DNA of 64,000 nt from Sphingobacteriaceae bacterium (lineage in GTDB: Bacteria > Bacteroidota > Bacteroidia > B-17B0 > Aurantibacillaceae): contig NVQB01000001.1 in assembly GCA_002319075.1 (NCBI GenBank), positions 4,092,001 through 4,156,000 on the forward strand, in the 5' to 3' direction. The first letter of the stretch is position 1, and every line of letters starts with the position of its first letter. Shown here in pieces: positions 5,641 through 35,772 of this stretch. Position numbers and translations under genes: made by a program. A model generated the notes under the pieces. The model was not told the DNA's origin and searched no databases. It worked only from the letters and a program-made list of their open reading frames with translations.

Positions 5641-6303
5641 CGATGTCAGTTCGGGAAGGATCAACATCCAGTGGATATTAAGGCCAGCTGAAGGGCGGTC
5701 GATGTCAGTTCGGGCAGGATCAACATCCAGTGGATGTTAAGGCCAGCTGATGGACGGTCGATGTCAGTTCGGGCAGGATCAACATCCAGTGGATGTTAAG
5801 GCCAGCTGAAGGGCGGTCGAAGTCAGTTCGGGCAGGATCAACATCCAGTGGATGTTAAGGCCAGCTGATGGGCGGTCGATGTCAGTTCGGGCAGGATCAA
5901 CATCCAGTGGATGTTAAGGCCAGCTGATGGACGGTCGATGTCAGTTCGGGCAGGATCAACATCCAGTGGATGTTAAGGCCAGCTGGTGGACGGTCGATGT
6001 CAGTTCGGGCAGGATCAACATCCAGTGGATGTTAAGGCCAGCTGATGGACGGTCGATGTCAGTTCGGGCAGGATCAACATCCAGTGGATGTTAAGGCCAG
6101 CTGATGGACGGTCGATGTCAGTTCGGGCAGGATCAACATCCAGTGGATGTTAAGGCCAGCTGGTGGACGGTCGATGTCAGTTCGGGCAGGATCAACATCC
6201 AGTGGATGTTAAGGCCAGCTGATGGACGGTCGATGTCAGTTCGGGCAGGATCAACATCCAGTGGATGTTAAGGCCAGCTGATGGACGGTCGATGTCAGTT
6301 CGA
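5641..6303. repeat. Tandem array, 59-bp unit, 11 copies plus a partial copy
   Basis: Unit starts fall at 5641, 5700, 5759, 5818, 5877, 5936, 5995, 6054, 6113, 6172 and 6231, exactly 59 bp apart, and a twelfth partial copy starts at 6290. Units differ at only a few positions (for example GAAGGGC, GATGGAC or GGTGGAC after CAGCT). Each contains the palindrome AACATCCAGTGGATGTT, able to form a 7-8 bp hairpin, and the head GATGTCAGTTCGGGCAGG. The array abuts the stop codon of the following minus-strand gene. There are no variable spacers, so it is not a CRISPR array. Confidence 0.95.
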
Positions 6304-6316
6304 GCGTAGTCGAGAA
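6291..6316 (+). repeat. Single TTCGAGCGTAGTCGAG repeat capping the 59-bp array
   Basis: The last partial array unit changes from CAGTTCGGGCAGG to CAGTTCGAGCGTAGTCGAG, which is the core of the dispersed repeat family seen at 33.9-35.0 kb. It ends at the stop codon of the short-chain dehydrogenase at 6317. This suggests the 59-bp units evolved from, or recombined with, that family. Confidence 0.75.
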
Positions 6317-7126
6317 CTAAAGAAACAAATCAATCATCAATTTTTCATTGGGATTGATAGCATATTTACTAAAATCCGTTACGCCATTTTCTCTGAGAAT
6401 TTCTTCATCAATAAAAAAGTTTCCGGTTGTGGATGTGCTGTTTTTCTCGAAAATAAGAAGCGCCGCATCTGCCATAATTTCTGGCGTGCGGCTTTTGTTT
6501 ATCAAGGCATCGCCACCCAATAGATTCTGCACAGCGGCTGTGGCTATCGTCGTTCGCGGCCACAGAGCATTAACACCTATTTTATATTTTTTTAATTCTT
6601 CAGCAAGACCAAGAACTGTCATACTCATGCCATACTTAGCCATGGTATAAGCCAGGTGTTTTCCAAACCATTTCGGGTCAAGATTTAAAGGTGGCGACAA
6701 GGTAAGGATATGTGGATTCCCGGATTCTTTCAGTAGGGGAATACAATATTTAGAAACCATAAAAGTTCCTCTTACATTAATGTTGTGCATTAAGTCGTAT
6801 CGCTTCATTTCTAACTCCTCTGTGGAAGAGAGATTGATGGCGGAAGCATTATTTACAAGTATATCAATGTGGCCAAATGTTGATTTTACTTTTTCAACAG
6901 CGGCAACAACGTTTGCTTCATCACGAATGTCAACCTGCAATGGCAAAGCTTTCACACCGGCTTTTTCGACCTCCTCAGCAACAGAATAAATTGTCCCTGG
7001 AATTTTCGGATTCGGATCGGTAGTCTTGGCTGCAATAACAATGTTGTAACCTTTTTTCGCCAGGCCAAGAGCTATCTCTCTTCCAATACCGCGACTTGCG
7101 CCGGTGATGAATGCTGTTTTTGCCAT
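6317..7126 (-). CDS. SDR family oxidoreductase (HSDL2-like)
   Basis: Classical short-chain dehydrogenase of about 269 residues using NAD(P)H. The cofactor motif TGASRGIG lies at residues 8-15 and NNAS at 92-95. The catalytic Ser, Tyr and Lys are S144, Y160 and K164 (AYTMAK). I chose ATG at 7126 rather than an upstream start at 7171, because 7126 begins right after the stop of the acyl-CoA dehydrogenase and gives the usual N-terminus MAKTAFITGASRG. It resembles the HSDL2-like dehydrogenases linked to lipid metabolism. Coupling to the upstream gene suggests one operon acting on an acyl or hydroxyacyl substrate; that substrate is inferred, not shown. Confidence 0.9.
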   Translation of the reverse strand: MAKTAFITGASRGIGREIALGLAKKGYNIVIAAKTTDPNPKIPGTIYSVAEEVEKAGVKALPLQVDIRDEANVVAAVEKVKSTFGHIDILVNNASAINLSSTEELEMKRYDLMHNINVRGTFMVSKYCIPLLKESGNPHILTLSPPLNLDPKWFGKHLAYTMAKYGMSMTVLGLAEELKKYKIGVNALWPRTTIATAAVQNLLGGDALINKSRTPEIMADAALLIFEKNSTSTTGNFFIDEEILRENGVTDFSKYAINPNEKLMIDLFL

Positions 7127-30412: not shown

Positions 30413-31816
30413 TTAGTCAAAATCGTGAAACTCTTTACCAACAGGCTTCTCTAGACTAATGATTTTTTTTCTGCCCTGACCCAAATGTTGGCGGATTAAA
30501 GAATCGGCATCCGGGTAATAATCTGCCGTTTTTATAAAACCTTTAAATTCTTCAGGATCAGAGATTTGTTCAAAGCTATCGTAATAGCCGTAGCCCTTAT
30601 AACGTGCGTTTTCCACTACCACCACCGAATATTCGCCTGCAGTTCTTCCTTTGTCGATAATGGCAAAGTCTTTTTGTTTAAAAAGATAGGCGTCCAGTAT
30701 AATCTGCACACGCTTGTTGTAGACCTCAATATCTTCTTGTTCAGCGCAGATGCCGTTGCATTTTTTTATCTGGTGATTAAAACACACCGATTCTTCGCTA
30801 CTGAGGTGACAGTAACGCATGCACAATTCATAAGTTTCAATCCAACTGTCAACACGTTCGCGGGCACTCATGTAGGTATTAAAAGTGGCAAGAGCATTTT
30901 CACTTTCATCAAAGGGTACTATTTTTAAATTGAGAATTCCTTTTTTATCTTTAAAATAATCGATGCAGTGTGTAAACTCTTCCGACTTACGCATACGGTT
31001 ATATAAAGGCTTATGTTTTTTTATTTCACCCGATTCTAAAAGCAATGCTATAAGTTCACTACCTGTTACCACGTAGTCTACGTTATAAAGATCGTTCAGC
31101 ATTTTTTTACTTTTTTTCTGATCGCTGTTAAAATGACCTTTTGCACGGTTGTACATATTCGTGCTTTTTCCAATGTAGATAATCTCCCCGGCGCGGTTCC
31201 TGAAATAATAAACGCCACATTCTTCGGGTAATTTATCGAGAATGTATTGTTTTATTTTATCAATGCGACGCACCATGATGTCTTCTACACCCATGTTTTT
31301 GTATTGGGGATGTTGCGTTTTTAAACGGATCAACAAATCAAATAAAATAGCTGTTGCTTCTGCATCTCCTGCCGCGCGGTGTCTGCCAAAGATCTCAATG
31401 TTTAAAGACGCACAAAGATGCCCTAAACTATAAGATATTCTGCCCGGAATTAATTTCCTGCTCAAGCGCACAGTGCATAAGGTGTCGCGTTTGTATTTAA
31501 ATCCCAGAGAATTAAATTCCTCTTTTATAAATCCGTAATCGAAAGAAACGTTGTGTGCCACGAAAATGCAGCCCTCTGTCATCTCATTTATTTTTTTTGC
31601 AATCTCGTAAAATTTTGGAGCGTCGGCCACCATCTCGTTTGTAATGCCGGTGAGTCCGGTAAAATAGGGACTAATATTGCATTCGGGATTTACGAGTGTG
31701 GTAAATTTTTCTATCACGCTTAAGCCATCGTGTTTCAGAATACAGATTTCTGTAATGCGTCCTTTCCGGAATTCAAATTTGCCTCCGCAGGTCTCTATGT
31801 CAATAATGGCGAACAT
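30413..31816 (-). CDS. DEDDh exonuclease fused to a GIY-YIG nuclease domain
   Basis: A 467-residue fusion. Residues 1-170 form a DnaQ-like 3'-5' exonuclease (D6 and E8 in IIDIETCGG, AHNVSFD, and the HRAAGDAEAT block with the catalytic His and Asp). Residues about 195-285 form a UvrC/Cho-type GIY-YIG domain (CGVYYFRNRAGEIIYIGKST). The C-terminal part has a Cys cluster (CMRYCHL, CFNHQIKKCNGIC) as in UvrC-like proteins. The arrangement is known in Bacteroidota and suggests a role in excision repair. It is single-gene with a TAATTTTG promoter box. Confidence 0.9.
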   Translation of the reverse strand: MFAIIDIETCGGKFEFRKGRITEICILKHDGLSVIEKFTTLVNPECNISPYFTGLTGITNEMVADAPKFYEIAKKINEMTEGCIFVAHNVSFDYGFIKEEFNSLGFKYKRDTLCTVRLSRKLIPGRISYSLGHLCASLNIEIFGRHRAAGDAEATAILFDLLIRLKTQHPQYKNMGVEDIMVRRIDKIKQYILDKLPEECGVYYFRNRAGEIIYIGKSTNMYNRAKGHFNSDQKKSKKMLNDLYNVDYVVTGSELIALLLESGEIKKHKPLYNRMRKSEEFTHCIDYFKDKKGILNLKIVPFDESENALATFNTYMSARERVDSWIETYELCMRYCHLSSEESVCFNHQIKKCNGICAEQEDIEVYNKRVQIILDAYLFKQKDFAIIDKGRTAGEYSVVVVENARYKGYGYYDSFEQISDPEEFKGFIKTADYYPDADSLIRQHLGQGRKKIISLEKPVGKEFHDFD

Positions 31817-32888: not shown

Positions 32889-33965
32889 ATGGAAAACCTT
32901 GCAACAGTAGACAATTTTATGAAAGGGCGCGGCGCCCAGGTGAACACGCATAATAAATTTTTTAAGCAGCAGTATGTGCAGGACCATGTAGAAGGTCTGG
33001 ACGAAGAATTTTTAGTAAAAGAAAAAACCGAAATTATTTACACCTGGCCCAAAGCCATCGTGAATAAAGTGGAGAGTGATGATTTAGGTTTCGGGTATTC
33101 TATGAATCCCTACCAGGGTTGTGAGCATGGCTGCATTTATTGTTACGCTCGAAACACGCATGAATTCTGGGGTTACAGCGCAGGGTTGGATTTTGAAAGA
33201 AAGATCCTGGTAAAGAAAAACGCGATAGAACTCCTGGAAAAAACGTTTAGTAAAAAAAGCTGGAAGCCTAAACCTATTATGCTTTCGGGTAATACCGACT
33301 GTTACCAGCCCATAGAAAGAGAGTTGGAAATTACGCGTAACATTTTAAAGACTTGTTTAAAATACAAACATCCCGTTTCGGTGATCACCAAAAATTCTCT
33401 TATTAAAAGGGATCTCGATATTTTAGCGCAGTTGGCCGAACATAATTTGGTACATGTGATGGTGTCTATTACCGGCACAGATGAAAAGGTAAGACAGCTT
33501 TTAGAGCCACGCACAGCCAGTTATAAAAGTCGTTTTAATGTGATTGAAACTTTGGCTAAATATAAAATTCCCTGTGGTGTGATGGTGGCACCTATTATTC
33601 CGGGGATTAATTCGCACGACGTAGCGAGTGTTTTAGAACAAGCCGGTGCAGCGGGCGCCACAGCAGCGGGCATGACGATAGTGCGTTTGAACGGAGCGGT
33701 TGGAGATATTTTTAAAGATTGGTTATTTAAGAGCTTTCCCGATAGGGCCGAGAAGGTATGGACGCAAATTTGTGATTGTCATGGTGGAAATGTGAACGAT
33801 AGCCGGTTCGGCGTGAGAATGCGCGGCGAAGGAAAAATTGCCGACTCTATTGTGCAATTGTTTAAAATATCGAAAGCGAAGTACATAAAAACGCGTGATG
33901 ATTTTAAATTGAATTGCGAGGATTTTAATTACAAAGCGAATGATATACAGTTGAGTTTGTTCTGA
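32889..33965 (+). CDS. PA0069/Rv2578c family radical SAM protein
   Basis: A 358-residue radical S-adenosylmethionine protein of the SplB-related PA0069 family. The iron-sulfur cluster motif is CEHGCIYCY (C78, C82, C85). Other family blocks are PYQGCEHGC, MLSGNTDCYQPIE (about 125-137) and GMTIVRLNGAVG. The physiological reaction is not established; relatives include DNA photoproduct lyases, and a repair role is often proposed. Length is normal. The stop codon is followed at once by the first repeat array. Confidence 0.9.
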   Translation: MENLATVDNFMKGRGAQVNTHNKFFKQQYVQDHVEGLDEEFLVKEKTEIIYTWPKAIVNKVESDDLGFGYSMNPYQGCEHGCIYCYARNTHEFWGYSAGLDFERKILVKKNAIELLEKTFSKKSWKPKPIMLSGNTDCYQPIERELEITRNILKTCLKYKHPVSVITKNSLIKRDLDILAQLAEHNLVHVMVSITGTDEKVRQLLEPRTASYKSRFNVIETLAKYKIPCGVMVAPIIPGINSHDVASVLEQAGAAGATAAGMTIVRLNGAVGDIFKDWLFKSFPDRAEKVWTQICDCHGGNVNDSRFGVRMRGEGKIADSIVQLFKISKAKYIKTRDDFKLNCEDFNYKANDIQLSLF

Positions 33966-34174
33966 TCTCGACTACGCTCGATCTGACAGCGACTGGGCTC
34001 TATCTGACAGCGACTGGGCTCGATGTGAAAGCGACTAGGCTCTATCTGATCTCGACTACGCTCGATCTGACAGCGACTGGGCTCGATGTGAAAGCGACTG
34101 GGCTCTATCTGATCTCGACTACGCTCGATCTGACAGCGACTAGGGTCGATCTGACAGCGACTAGGCTCTATCTG
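33964..34174 (-). repeat. Array of about ten 21-bp units, reverse orientation
   Basis: Units such as CTCGACTACGCTCGATCTGA and CAGCGACTGGGCTCTATCTG follow each other every 21 bp. They are the reverse complement of, or degenerate versions of, the core TTCGAGCGTAGTCGAG. A higher-order pattern of three to four units recurs. The 21-bp period is a multiple of three, which creates a false reading frame (34025-34216). Confidence 0.9.
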
Positions 34175-34179
34175 AACAT

Positions 34180-34310
34180 TGAGCGTAGTCGGAAGCCGTT
34201 GTCACTTCGAGTGTAGTGAGAAGCCGTTGTCACTTCGAGTGTAGTGAGAAGCCGTTGTCACTTCGAGCGTAGTCGAGAAGCCGTTGTCACTTCGAGCGTA
34301 GTCGAGAAGA
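34180..34310 (+). repeat. Array of four 28-bp units, forward orientation
   Basis: GTCACTTCGAGCGTAGTCGA and its variant GTCACTTCGAGTGTAGTGAG recur at 34201, 34229, 34257 and 34285, each unit closing GAAGCCGTT; a worn copy lies before 34200. The array faces the reverse array at 33964-34174, so together they form a large inverted structure. Confidence 0.9.
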
Positions 34311-34348
34311 TGCACTATTTTTAACTCTAACCCAAAATATAAAATCCC

Positions 34349-34714
34349 ATGCAGAAATTTTTATACGTCTACATCCTTAAATGCTCTGATCATTCTTATT
34401 ATACCGGCGTTACAAATAATCCCGAAAGAAGACTAATAGAGCACAACACTGGTTTTAATAAAGATTCTTACACATACTCACGAAGGCCCGTTGAGATGCT
34501 TTATCTGGAAAGATTTACAGATTATAATTTAGCGATTTCCTGGGAAAAAAGGATTAAAGATTGGAGTAGAAAGAAAAAAGAAGCTTTAATAAATGGATAT
34601 TGGGATGAATTGAGAAAGGCAGCTGAATGCCAGAATGCAAGTTCTCATAAGATTTTTTGGAATCTTTTGCGTTCGATAAATGTACAAGAAGATGTTACCT
34701 CGAGTGAAATGTAA
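34349..34714 (+). CDS. Small GIY-YIG nuclease family protein
   Basis: A 121-residue single-domain GIY-YIG protein. The two motif halves are YVYILKC (6-12) and YYTG (17-20). The catalytic Arg is in RRL (R27/R28) and the metal-binding Glu is E66 in SWEKRIKDWSRKKKEALI. The last 40 residues are an extra tail. Members of this short family (UPF0213-like) are common in Bacteroidota; their substrate is not established. It is enclosed on both sides by arrays of one palindromic repeat family, which is the reason to think it acts on that repeat. Confidence 0.9.
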   Translation: MQKFLYVYILKCSDHSYYTGVTNNPERRLIEHNTGFNKDSYTYSRRPVEMLYLERFTDYNLAISWEKRIKDWSRKKKEALINGYWDELRKAAECQNASSHKIFWNLLRSINVQEDVTSSEM

Positions 34715-34730
34715 AATAGAAATGTTACAC

Positions 34731-35016
34731 TGTTCTCGACTACGCTCGAACTGACATTTTCGACTACGCTCGAACTGACAGTTTCCGACTACGCTCGAAC
34801 TGACAGTCTCGAACACAGTTCTCGACTACGCTCGAACTGACATTTTCGACTACGCTCTAGCTGACAGTTTCGAACATGGTCTAACTGTTCTCGACTACGC
34901 TCGAACTGACAGTTTCCGACTACGCTCGAACTGACAGTTTCCGACTACGCTCCATCTGATCTCGACTACGCTCTATCTGAAATAGTTTCTGCAATGTCAC
35001 TTCGAGCGTAGTCGAG
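34731..35016. repeat. Nine reverse repeats closed by one forward repeat
   Basis: Nine copies of TCGACTACGCTCGAACTGAC and variants (spacing about 24-34 bp, some with CATTTT, some with CAGTTTC linkers) are followed by one forward TCACTTCGAGCGTAGTCGAG at about 34996. The reverse-then-forward order is the same as on the other side of the GIY-YIG gene. The array ends 4 bp before the stop of the next minus-strand gene. Confidence 0.9.
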
Positions 35017-35019
35017 AAG

Positions 35020-35772
35020 TTACTGTGCGAGGTAACCGCCATCTACATTGTAGTATGCGCCGGTTACGAAAGAGGCTTTGTCGGAAGCTAACCACAAAGC
35101 TAGTTCTGCTACTTCTTCCGATGTTCCCAATCTTCCCATGGGGTGTAATTTTTCTAACGAAGTCATGGTTGCTTTGTCCAGCGTATTTGTGAGCAGAGGT
35201 GTTACTATGTAACCGGGCCCTATAGAGTTGATGCGGATTTTCTGATCTGCATATTCAACAGCTGCTGCTTCGGTTAAACCTATTACACCATGTTTAGAGG
35301 CGACATAAGCCGGAGAGCCTTTTGTTCCTACTTTTCCAAGAATAGAGGCTATGTTTATGATGTTGCCGCCACCTGCTGCCAATAGCGCCGGTATTTGGTA
35401 ACGCAAACCATAAAACACTCCTGATAAATTAACCGAGATCACCTTGTCCCAACCTTCAACAGGATATTCTCCTGTAAGACCTTGTGGACCGCCGATGCCG
35501 GCATTGTTCACCGCAATGTGAAGCGCTCCAAATTGTTTCACGGCTTCTTTCACCACTTTCTCACTGTCTTCTGCTTTTGCTGTGTTGGCTGTTACAAAAA
35601 TGGCTTCCCCGCCTTTTGCTTTTATTTGAGAAACGGTTTCGTTCCCGCCTTTTTCGTCTACGTCCGACACAACAATTTTTGCTCCTTCAGAAGCATATAA
35701 CAATGCGATGGCTCTGCCAATACCTGATCCGGCACCGGTTATAAGCGCTACTTTTTTTTCTAATGTTTTCAT
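35020..35772 (-). CDS. SDR family oxidoreductase
   Basis: A 250-residue classical short-chain dehydrogenase using NAD(H) or NADP(H). TGAGSGIG lies at 12-19 and NNAG at 89-92. The catalytic residues are S143, Y156 and K160 (YVASK), and GPGYIVTPL follows. D37 in VVSDVDE at the end of strand 2 favours NAD over NADP. It resembles glucose 1-dehydrogenase-type or cyclopentanol-type enzymes, but the substrate cannot be told. It is monocistronic, and its stop codon sits at the edge of the repeat array. Confidence 0.92.
   Translation of the reverse strand: MKTLEKKVALITGAGSGIGRAIALLYASEGAKIVVSDVDEKGGNETVSQIKAKGGEAIFVTANTAKAEDSEKVVKEAVKQFGALHIAVNNAGIGGPQGLTGEYPVEGWDKVISVNLSGVFYGLRYQIPALLAAGGGNIINIASILGKVGTKGSPAYVASKHGVIGLTEAAAVEYADQKIRINSIGPGYIVTPLLTNTLDKATMTSLEKLHPMGRLGTSEEVAELALWLASDKASFVTGAYYNVDGGYLAQ

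Follow-up and report, generated by a model that had tools for sequence, protein, structure and literature searches.

A family of small GIY-YIG nuclease genes is associated with tagged palindromic repeats in Bacteroidota

Why is a small nuclease gene enclosed by arrays of a short palindromic repeat, and do the gene and the repeat belong together? The question is raised by a stretch of 64,000 nucleotides (hereafter the window) from the genome of a Sphingobacteriaceae bacterium (Bacteroidota, family Aurantibacillaceae in the GTDB lineage; assembly GCA_002319075.1, contig NVQB01000001.1, positions 4,092,001 to 4,156,000 of the forward strand). A first-pass annotation, prepared from the letters alone, had described there a GIY-YIG gene of 121 residues amid repeat clusters (34349..34714, plus strand), which is borne out by an intact open reading frame and by a PF01541 match of 62.2 bits (cut-off 22.6). 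It had also supposed that the nuclease and the repeat form a partnership. We have compared the locus with its relatives in other genomes and this second point is strongly supported. The association recurs across genomes, it is confined to a subset of GIY-YIG proteins, the repeats involved have a common architecture, and their class co-segregates with the protein phylogeny.

We analyzed a first set of 60 genomes, this one and 59 relatives, in which the per-genome counts add up to 132 GIY-YIG matches. From these, 110 loci were scored: every one of the 43 that exceeded 55 bits, and 67 of the 89 that did not. This line was set after seeing a gap in the scores between 59.7 and 51.8 bits. Genes above it are called here repetitive extragenic palindrome (REP)-type. 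The motif looked for, within 250 bp of the gene, consisted of an arm (4 nt or more), TCGA, a loop, TC and the complementary arm. It was present beside 43 of 43 homologues above 55 bits versus 5 of 67 lower-scoring GIY-YIG genes (Fisher p = 2e-25), and on both sides of 33 of 43 versus none of 67 (Fisher p = 2e-19); all p-values given here take genomes or loci as independent. The five lower-scoring genes had the motif on one side and by eye most of these were unlike the repeat, but they were counted all the same. Leaving out the genome of the window, the motif stood beside 42 of the 42 REP-type genes of the other 59. The motif was written after viewing loci L010-L044; the unseen test consisted of L045-L058, further REP-type loci of these genomes retrieved afterwards, of which 14 of 14 passed, and of the validation set described below. 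In close homologues the same repeat is found immediately before and after the gene. REP-type genes have a patchy distribution (29 of the 60 genomes) and several divergent copies may coexist, as in G041 with four and G007 with three.

The validation set came from a search of 118 genomes across the phylum, with E values up to 1e-25, which provided 33 matches in new genomes; 28 of these were given loci and scored. With the preset rule unchanged, 26 of the 28 homologues passed, 21 of them with a motif on each side of the gene. The two misses (L250 and L242) were scored as such, and by eye they are near-variants (a longer loop; TCGG for TCGA). Next to REP-type genes the motif is concentrated: it reaches 9.8 copies per kb in the first 100 bp and falls to 0.05 at a distance of 1-2.5 kb. 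Around lower-scoring GIY-YIG genes the values were 0.05-0.22 per kb at every distance. When the search window was shifted by 600 bp or 1 kb, the motif was found in 3 of 37 and 0 of 36 cases in the first set, and in 3 of 25 and 2 of 24 in the validation set. Complementary arms of at least 4 bp flanked 101 of 215 occurrences of TCGA-N5/6-TC near REP-type genes versus 2 of 39 near the others, indicating that arm complementarity is not merely an effect of the rule. With a profile of 36 rows the score gap was less clean, and a match of 80 bits in G014 had no adjoining repeat.

The kind of repeat follows the kind of protein. On a protein tree of 38 rows the repeat class changed 8 times, versus 23.7 times when shuffled, and none of 200 shuffles was as low. 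On a tree of 112 rows the motif label changed 6 times versus 35.7; in this tree the row of a Rhizobium phage had been set to 'none' before its flanks were scored, and one motif was later found more than 900 bp away. Genome-wide counts covered four repeat flavours, long-loop flavours being left out. In 25 of the 29 genome-flavour cases the genome had five or more further copies of the flavour flanking the gene, and in G019 five of 21 places were head-to-head pairs 27-28 bp apart. The flavours were commoner in genomes with the matching gene than in the others (p = 1e-5, 2e-4, 1e-3 and 2e-3). Repeats are also carried by 16 of the 31 genomes without a REP-type gene.

Distant homologues have other repeats with the same architecture, a palindrome with a TC bulge of 2 nt and a tag, often TGAC. 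Examples are GTTC-TCGA-CTACGC-TC-GAAC-TGACA, CCCT-TCGA-CAAGC-TC-AGGG and GGCT-TCGA-GGGCC-TC-AGCC. The bulged arms have at least 4 bp, the loops are mostly of 5-6 nt, or long, and the long-loop forms begin with TCGATAC. The 4-nt arm is followed by TGAC, or GTCA when read from the opposite strand, in 95 of 160 motifs of the first set and in 35 of 82 of the validation set. In the first set the nearest motif pointed outward on 60 of the 74 gene sides that had one within 120 bp (p = 6e-8), and the nearest copies were mutually inverted in 27 of the 33 two-sided genes. This mostly inverted layout is usual among the nearer relatives of the window and is not established phylum-wide. Alternating arrays blur this measure of orientation. 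Two REP-type genes (L031 and L046) lie in such arrays, with two palindrome types in opposite orientation, like the bacterial interspersed mosaic elements (BIMEs).

The protein belongs to the GIY-YIG superfamily by its PF01541 match and its conserved residues. Y18, G20, R28 and E66 do not vary among the 36 aligned members and Y8 hardly varies; we take these residues to be the catalytic set of GIY-YIG enzymes. The AlphaFold model is confident (mean predicted local distance difference test score, pLDDT, of 89.8), and the nearest solved structures are the UPF0213 proteins 1zg2 and 1ywl (36-38% identity over the aligned part) and also SLX1, a branched-DNA nuclease. Searched with the REP-type profile, its own genome gave this gene at 157 bits, the best match, and the next one at 59.8. 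An Rfam search returned a single match below the gathering score, read as chance, and a PHROGs search no match. Stop codons occur in 8 of the 43 REP-type matches, in four of them (L014, L015, L033 and L038) only after the domain, where they are probably the natural end. Downstream repeat copies often enter the reading frame and provide the last codons of the gene, as translated repeat tails. The eight stop-containing matches were excluded from the alignment and the trees; alignment A1 was made without L016 and L034, whose open frames run far past the domain, and with L040, L041 and L043 added.

How could a nuclease gene and a repeat come to be so tightly associated? We think that the protein is probably a GIY-YIG nuclease associated with REPs. 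It would be a counterpart of the REP-associated tyrosine transposases (RAYTs), though built on a nuclease fold unrelated to theirs, and would recognise, cut and spread its own class of repeat. The gene and its bracketing palindromes would form one unit, and the dispersed copies would be non-autonomous relatives of the ends of this unit. The nuclease would recognise the arm, the TCGA...TC core and often the TGAC tag, and would cut or nick the repeat, probably when this is exposed as a hairpin or a branched structure. Repair or replication of the cut copies would then multiply and spread the repeat, and sometimes the gene too. Association and co-segregation are shown. Recognition and spreading, which the first-pass annotation had also proposed, and cutting are what we infer, recognition being more likely than spreading. 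If the proposal is true, it would show that unrelated nucleases have taken up the RAYT-REP life style on more than one occasion. The claim can be tested directly with a small protein. In open-access full text, with most subscription papers and all preprints outside its reach, we found no paper linking GIY-YIG genes with REPs, in agreement with the first-pass annotation, which knew of no described GIY-YIG/repeat system of this kind. In PMC9465073 a pangenome table has entries for a GIY-YIG gene and for a RAYT, the two listed separately.

Several findings weigh against this proposal. Its support is sequence-based. In the validation set the nearest copies were inverted in only 11 of the 21 two-sided genes and pointed outward on 24 of the 37 sides within 120 bp (p = 0.10), and this weak inversion has lowered our support for it. 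Single repeat units fold weakly as single-stranded DNA; among six units folded only the long-loop variant was clearly stable, for which reason hairpin extrusion is not claimed as shown. Four of the 43 REP-type genes (L017, L050, L057 and L058) have a stop within the domain or near its start. REP-type loci shared a common neighbour in 14 of 903 pairs versus 4 of 465 pairs of other GIY-YIG loci, so that neighbour-sharing is no rarer for the former and their position is no special sign of movement, and no exact empty site was found. In the genome of the window the densest array, with ten exact cores at 5269058-5269514 versus six at our locus, has no GIY-YIG gene near. Finally, in the 16 genomes mentioned above, among the 31 that lack a REP-type gene, some flavour reaches five copies or more, with 158 in G053, and a profile search of these 16, in which 30 of the 42 matches were given loci, found none with the motif on both sides.

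The first-pass annotation had stated that equally dense repeats without any GIY-YIG gene, or genomes with the repeat and no such gene, would refute the link, and both were found. We do not judge them fatal, since REPs run to tens or hundreds per RAYT gene, with which they co-evolve, according to passages of PMC2817692, since REPtrons can be lost, according to passages of PMC3733652, and since draft assemblies break at repeats. In one of the 16 genomes, G045, two contig ends each carry a part of the gene together with matching repeats. In G024 several of the places with repeats are close to where contigs start or end. Draft assemblies can therefore lose such genes, which may explain only some of the 16.

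The same copies without a gene would be expected if the repeats were a landing site, that is, if a free-standing gene of the homing type settled in repeat clusters spread by other machinery. GIY-YIG proteins are classic homing endonucleases, and the free-standing ones of the phage Seg type are stand-alone genes between other genes; these differ from the genes studied here in being described without palindromic flanks or a genome-wide repeat family. A preference for certain sites does exist in the superfamily, where 28 of 40 genes of the lowest score class lie beside transfer RNA (tRNA) genes, and the nearest copies had the same orientation in 10 of the 21 two-sided validation genes, as insertion into a direct array would leave. 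We consider this explanation unlikely. It does not fit well the 27 inverted cases among 33 two-sided genes of the first set, the repeat class tracks the protein phylogeny, and a RAYT-family match, as a possible agent of spread, is absent from this genome.

The closeness of the fold to UPF0213 and SLX1 suggests another possibility, a structure-specific nuclease that trims or resolves hairpins or cruciforms of the repeat, or is regulated by them, with no spreading involved. Such a housekeeping partner would agree with the frequent overlap of downstream repeats with the 3' end of the gene, and some loci do keep a neighbour between species. On the other hand, the patchy presence in 29 of 60 genomes, the several divergent copies per genome and the disrupted copies look selfish, and so do the different REP-type genes found at the same neighbour in the window's genome (G000) and in G018. 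The UPF0213/YazA proteins (1zg2, 1ywl) have the same small single-domain fold. However, the Bacillus subtilis YazA and Radiobacillus genes share an operon-like neighbourhood and have no motif in the stretch examined, whereas REP-type loci lack a conserved housekeeping neighbourhood (the 14 of 903 pairs given above). We find a purely housekeeping role improbable.

As we see the gene as a counterpart of RAYTs, the comparison with these must be made with some care. RAYT (TnpA-REP) systems, with their REPtrons and REPINs, resemble our loci in that tagged palindromes stand on both sides of a nuclease gene, that numerous copies are dispersed and that some form head-to-head pairs, and the co-evolution of enzyme and repeat is seen here too (8 changes versus 23.7). 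They differ in the enzyme, which is here a GIY-YIG (PF01541) and not an HUH tyrosine transposase (PF01797), in the tag, which is GTCA/TGTC or CCTC rather than GTAG (the remaining motifs were not searched for GTAG), and in the 2-nt TC bulge of the repeats, which in this genome form tandem arrays of 21-25-bp units; besides, inversion around the gene is clear in the first set only. The way of life is RAYT-like, but the gene is not a RAYT, the defining HUH domain being absent. Could ordinary RAYTs nevertheless drive these repeats, with the GIY-YIG gene as a bystander? A Bacteroidetes subclass of RAYTs, 2.6, is flanked by atypical structures according to a passage of PMC6006769. But PF01797 had no match in this genome, the only one searched for it, the common tag is TGAC/GTCA and not GTAG, and no RAYT was flanked by CGTC-type repeats as stated in a passage of Di Nocera 2013 (PMC3733652), all of which makes this very improbable. 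Mere coincidence, or passive co-location in repeat-rich intergenic DNA, could be suspected from the genome of the window, where a single GIY-YIG locus out of nine adjoins the repeat and such a gene is missing from 37 of 38 sites (from 100 listed cores), but it is scarcely credible and in effect refuted by the presence of the motif at all 42 REP-type genes of the 59 relatives and at 26 of 28 in the validation set, versus 5 of 67 other GIY-YIG genes.

If the preferred reading of a repeat-spreading GIY-YIG nuclease is right, which known repeats would it serve? Two super-families of tagged REPs were described in 2013, of which the GTAG class alone had an enzyme; the other, tagged with CGTC and its variants TGTC and CCTC, was found in Alphaproteobacteria, Bacteroidetes and other phyla, apparently without a dedicated transposase (passages of PMC3733652). 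Our repeats resemble the latter, as described in those passages, in the small palindromes, the presence in Alphaproteobacteria and Bacteroidetes and the absence of a RAYT link, and perhaps in the TGTC/CCTC tags. The published ones are described with a stem of 8-9 bp starting with A-T pairs, a loop of 4-5 and a CCA tail; the arms here seem shorter and are bulged, and the loops are mostly of 5-6 nt or long. Judged by description, the repeats reported here would likely belong to the CGTC-tagged family. Short palindromic repeats occur in many bacteria, and with a GIY-YIG partner the CGTC class would have a candidate enzyme. We thus put forward, tentatively, a second REP system independent of RAYTs in several phyla, in which GIY-YIG nucleases would drive the TGTC/CGTC/CCTC-tagged palindromes and supply the enzyme of the CGTC super-family. 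Its support, too, has been lowered by the weak inversion in the validation set. If true, it would explain such repeats from Bacteroidota to Alphaproteobacteria, and it would be the first instance that we know of in which GIY-YIG chemistry moves a non-autonomous element.

Outside Bacteroidota the sampling was thin, with 11 of 26 plasmid records, 14 viral contigs, 1 of 23 phage records, and one scan of genome contigs that gave 5 loci. Three loci on alphaproteobacterial plasmids (L085-L087, two of Methylobacterium and one of Sphingomonas) had the motif on both sides; in the two of Methylobacterium the copies were inverted but inward-pointing, and their tag was CCTC. Of the two best matches among the viral contigs one (L176) had the motif on both sides, in repeats that presumably are alphaproteobacterial from their looks, and the other (L177) on one side, its far flank being short. 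No motif was present within 250 bp in the remaining 12 of the 14 viral contigs, nor in a second Sphingomonas, two Cupriavidus, Radiobacillus, B. subtilis YazA, Acetoanaerobium and Photobacterium, and none was near the GIY-YIG copy of the Rhizobium phage. On a plasmid of Planktothrix agardhii (L091) an MmeI-type restriction gene and a DISARM helicase gene enclose a GIY-YIG gene. The GIY-YIG gene is bracketed by a TGTCATTCTGAG...CGAAGAATCTC repeat, by eye a variant of the architecture present on both sides and missed by the rule.

At the locus of the window the gene and its repeats fill the entire intergenic gap of about 1.05 kb, which apart from the gene is mostly repeat and extends from the stop codon of the upstream gene (33963-33965) to the end of the downstream one (35020). 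The upstream array (33961..34175, minus strand) starts in that stop codon and has ten 21-bp units, as annotated at first, three of them with a near-intact core. It is followed by units of 28/29 bp, TGTCACTTCGAGCGTAGTCGAGAAGCCGT, on the plus strand (34176..34309), of which we count five, the first degenerate, instead of the four 28-bp units reported; the full palindrome nearest to the gene is at 34290-34309. The downstream array (34729..34980, minus strand) is opposite in orientation to the nearest upstream units, with its nearest full palindrome at 34732-34751, and a last unit on the plus strand (34997..35020) touches the end of the converging downstream gene (35020-35772), so the description of the right cluster as nine units plus an opposite one was accurate. 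The core is not common to all units as had been claimed, since seven of the ten left 21-bp units lack it within two mismatches. It is exact in six units, and allowing up to two mismatches there are 14 in the window, 13 of them at this locus, versus 0.01 expected; a lone dispersed copy of the repeat is at 6297..6318 (plus strand). The architecture motif appears 10 times in 33964-35020 versus 0-2 times in 20 Markov shuffles of the segment.

In the whole genome of 5.65 Mb the exact core is found 102 times and a reversed control string not once. The 100 listed cores fall into 38 sites, 16 of them with at least two copies. There are nine GIY-YIG loci and only that of the window adjoins the repeat, the others being 3.3-170 kb from a listed core, and the genome by itself would show no partnership between gene and repeat. 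One of the others (L008), at 30413-31816 of the window, codes for a protein of 467 amino acids with, by eye, a DnaQ-like exonuclease start, besides its GIY-YIG match, and is the one 3.3 kb from the nearest exact core.

The upstream neighbour, which ends at 33965, is radical-SAM-like and the downstream one short-chain-dehydrogenase-like, names that come from reading the sequences. The former was found in 30 genomes of the genus, and the stretch that follows it was read in 29 of them, in one for 50 bp only. A GIY-YIG gene with a repeat array comes after it in 2 of the 29, the genome of the window and G018. The gene of G018 is another member of the REP type, sharing 46% identity in the matched part, and its repeats are different too. 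In G020 and G035 the neighbour is followed by one motif and no GIY-YIG match, in searches with this protein only.

The lowest-scoring GIY-YIG genes have a different company. A tRNA or transfer-messenger RNA (tmRNA) gene was within 350 bp of 28 of 40 genes scoring up to 36 bits, of 3 of 27 between 36 and 55 bits, and of none of the 43 REP-type genes (the loci L096-L135 and L059-L084 are from relatives of G000). These RNA genes were on the strand of the GIY-YIG gene in 36 of 37 cases and upstream of it in 29 of 37. The low-scoring genes look like a separate, tRNA-associated class with homing-like traits. In the genome of the window itself a tRNA gene is within about 350 bp of five of the six other small GIY-YIG genes (L002, L003, L004, L005 and L009). 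By eye, L004 and L005 have on the opposite side a second, altered stretch of tRNA sequence, and L002 and L003, each next to another tRNA gene, have identical scores and flanking sequence in common, as though one were a copy.

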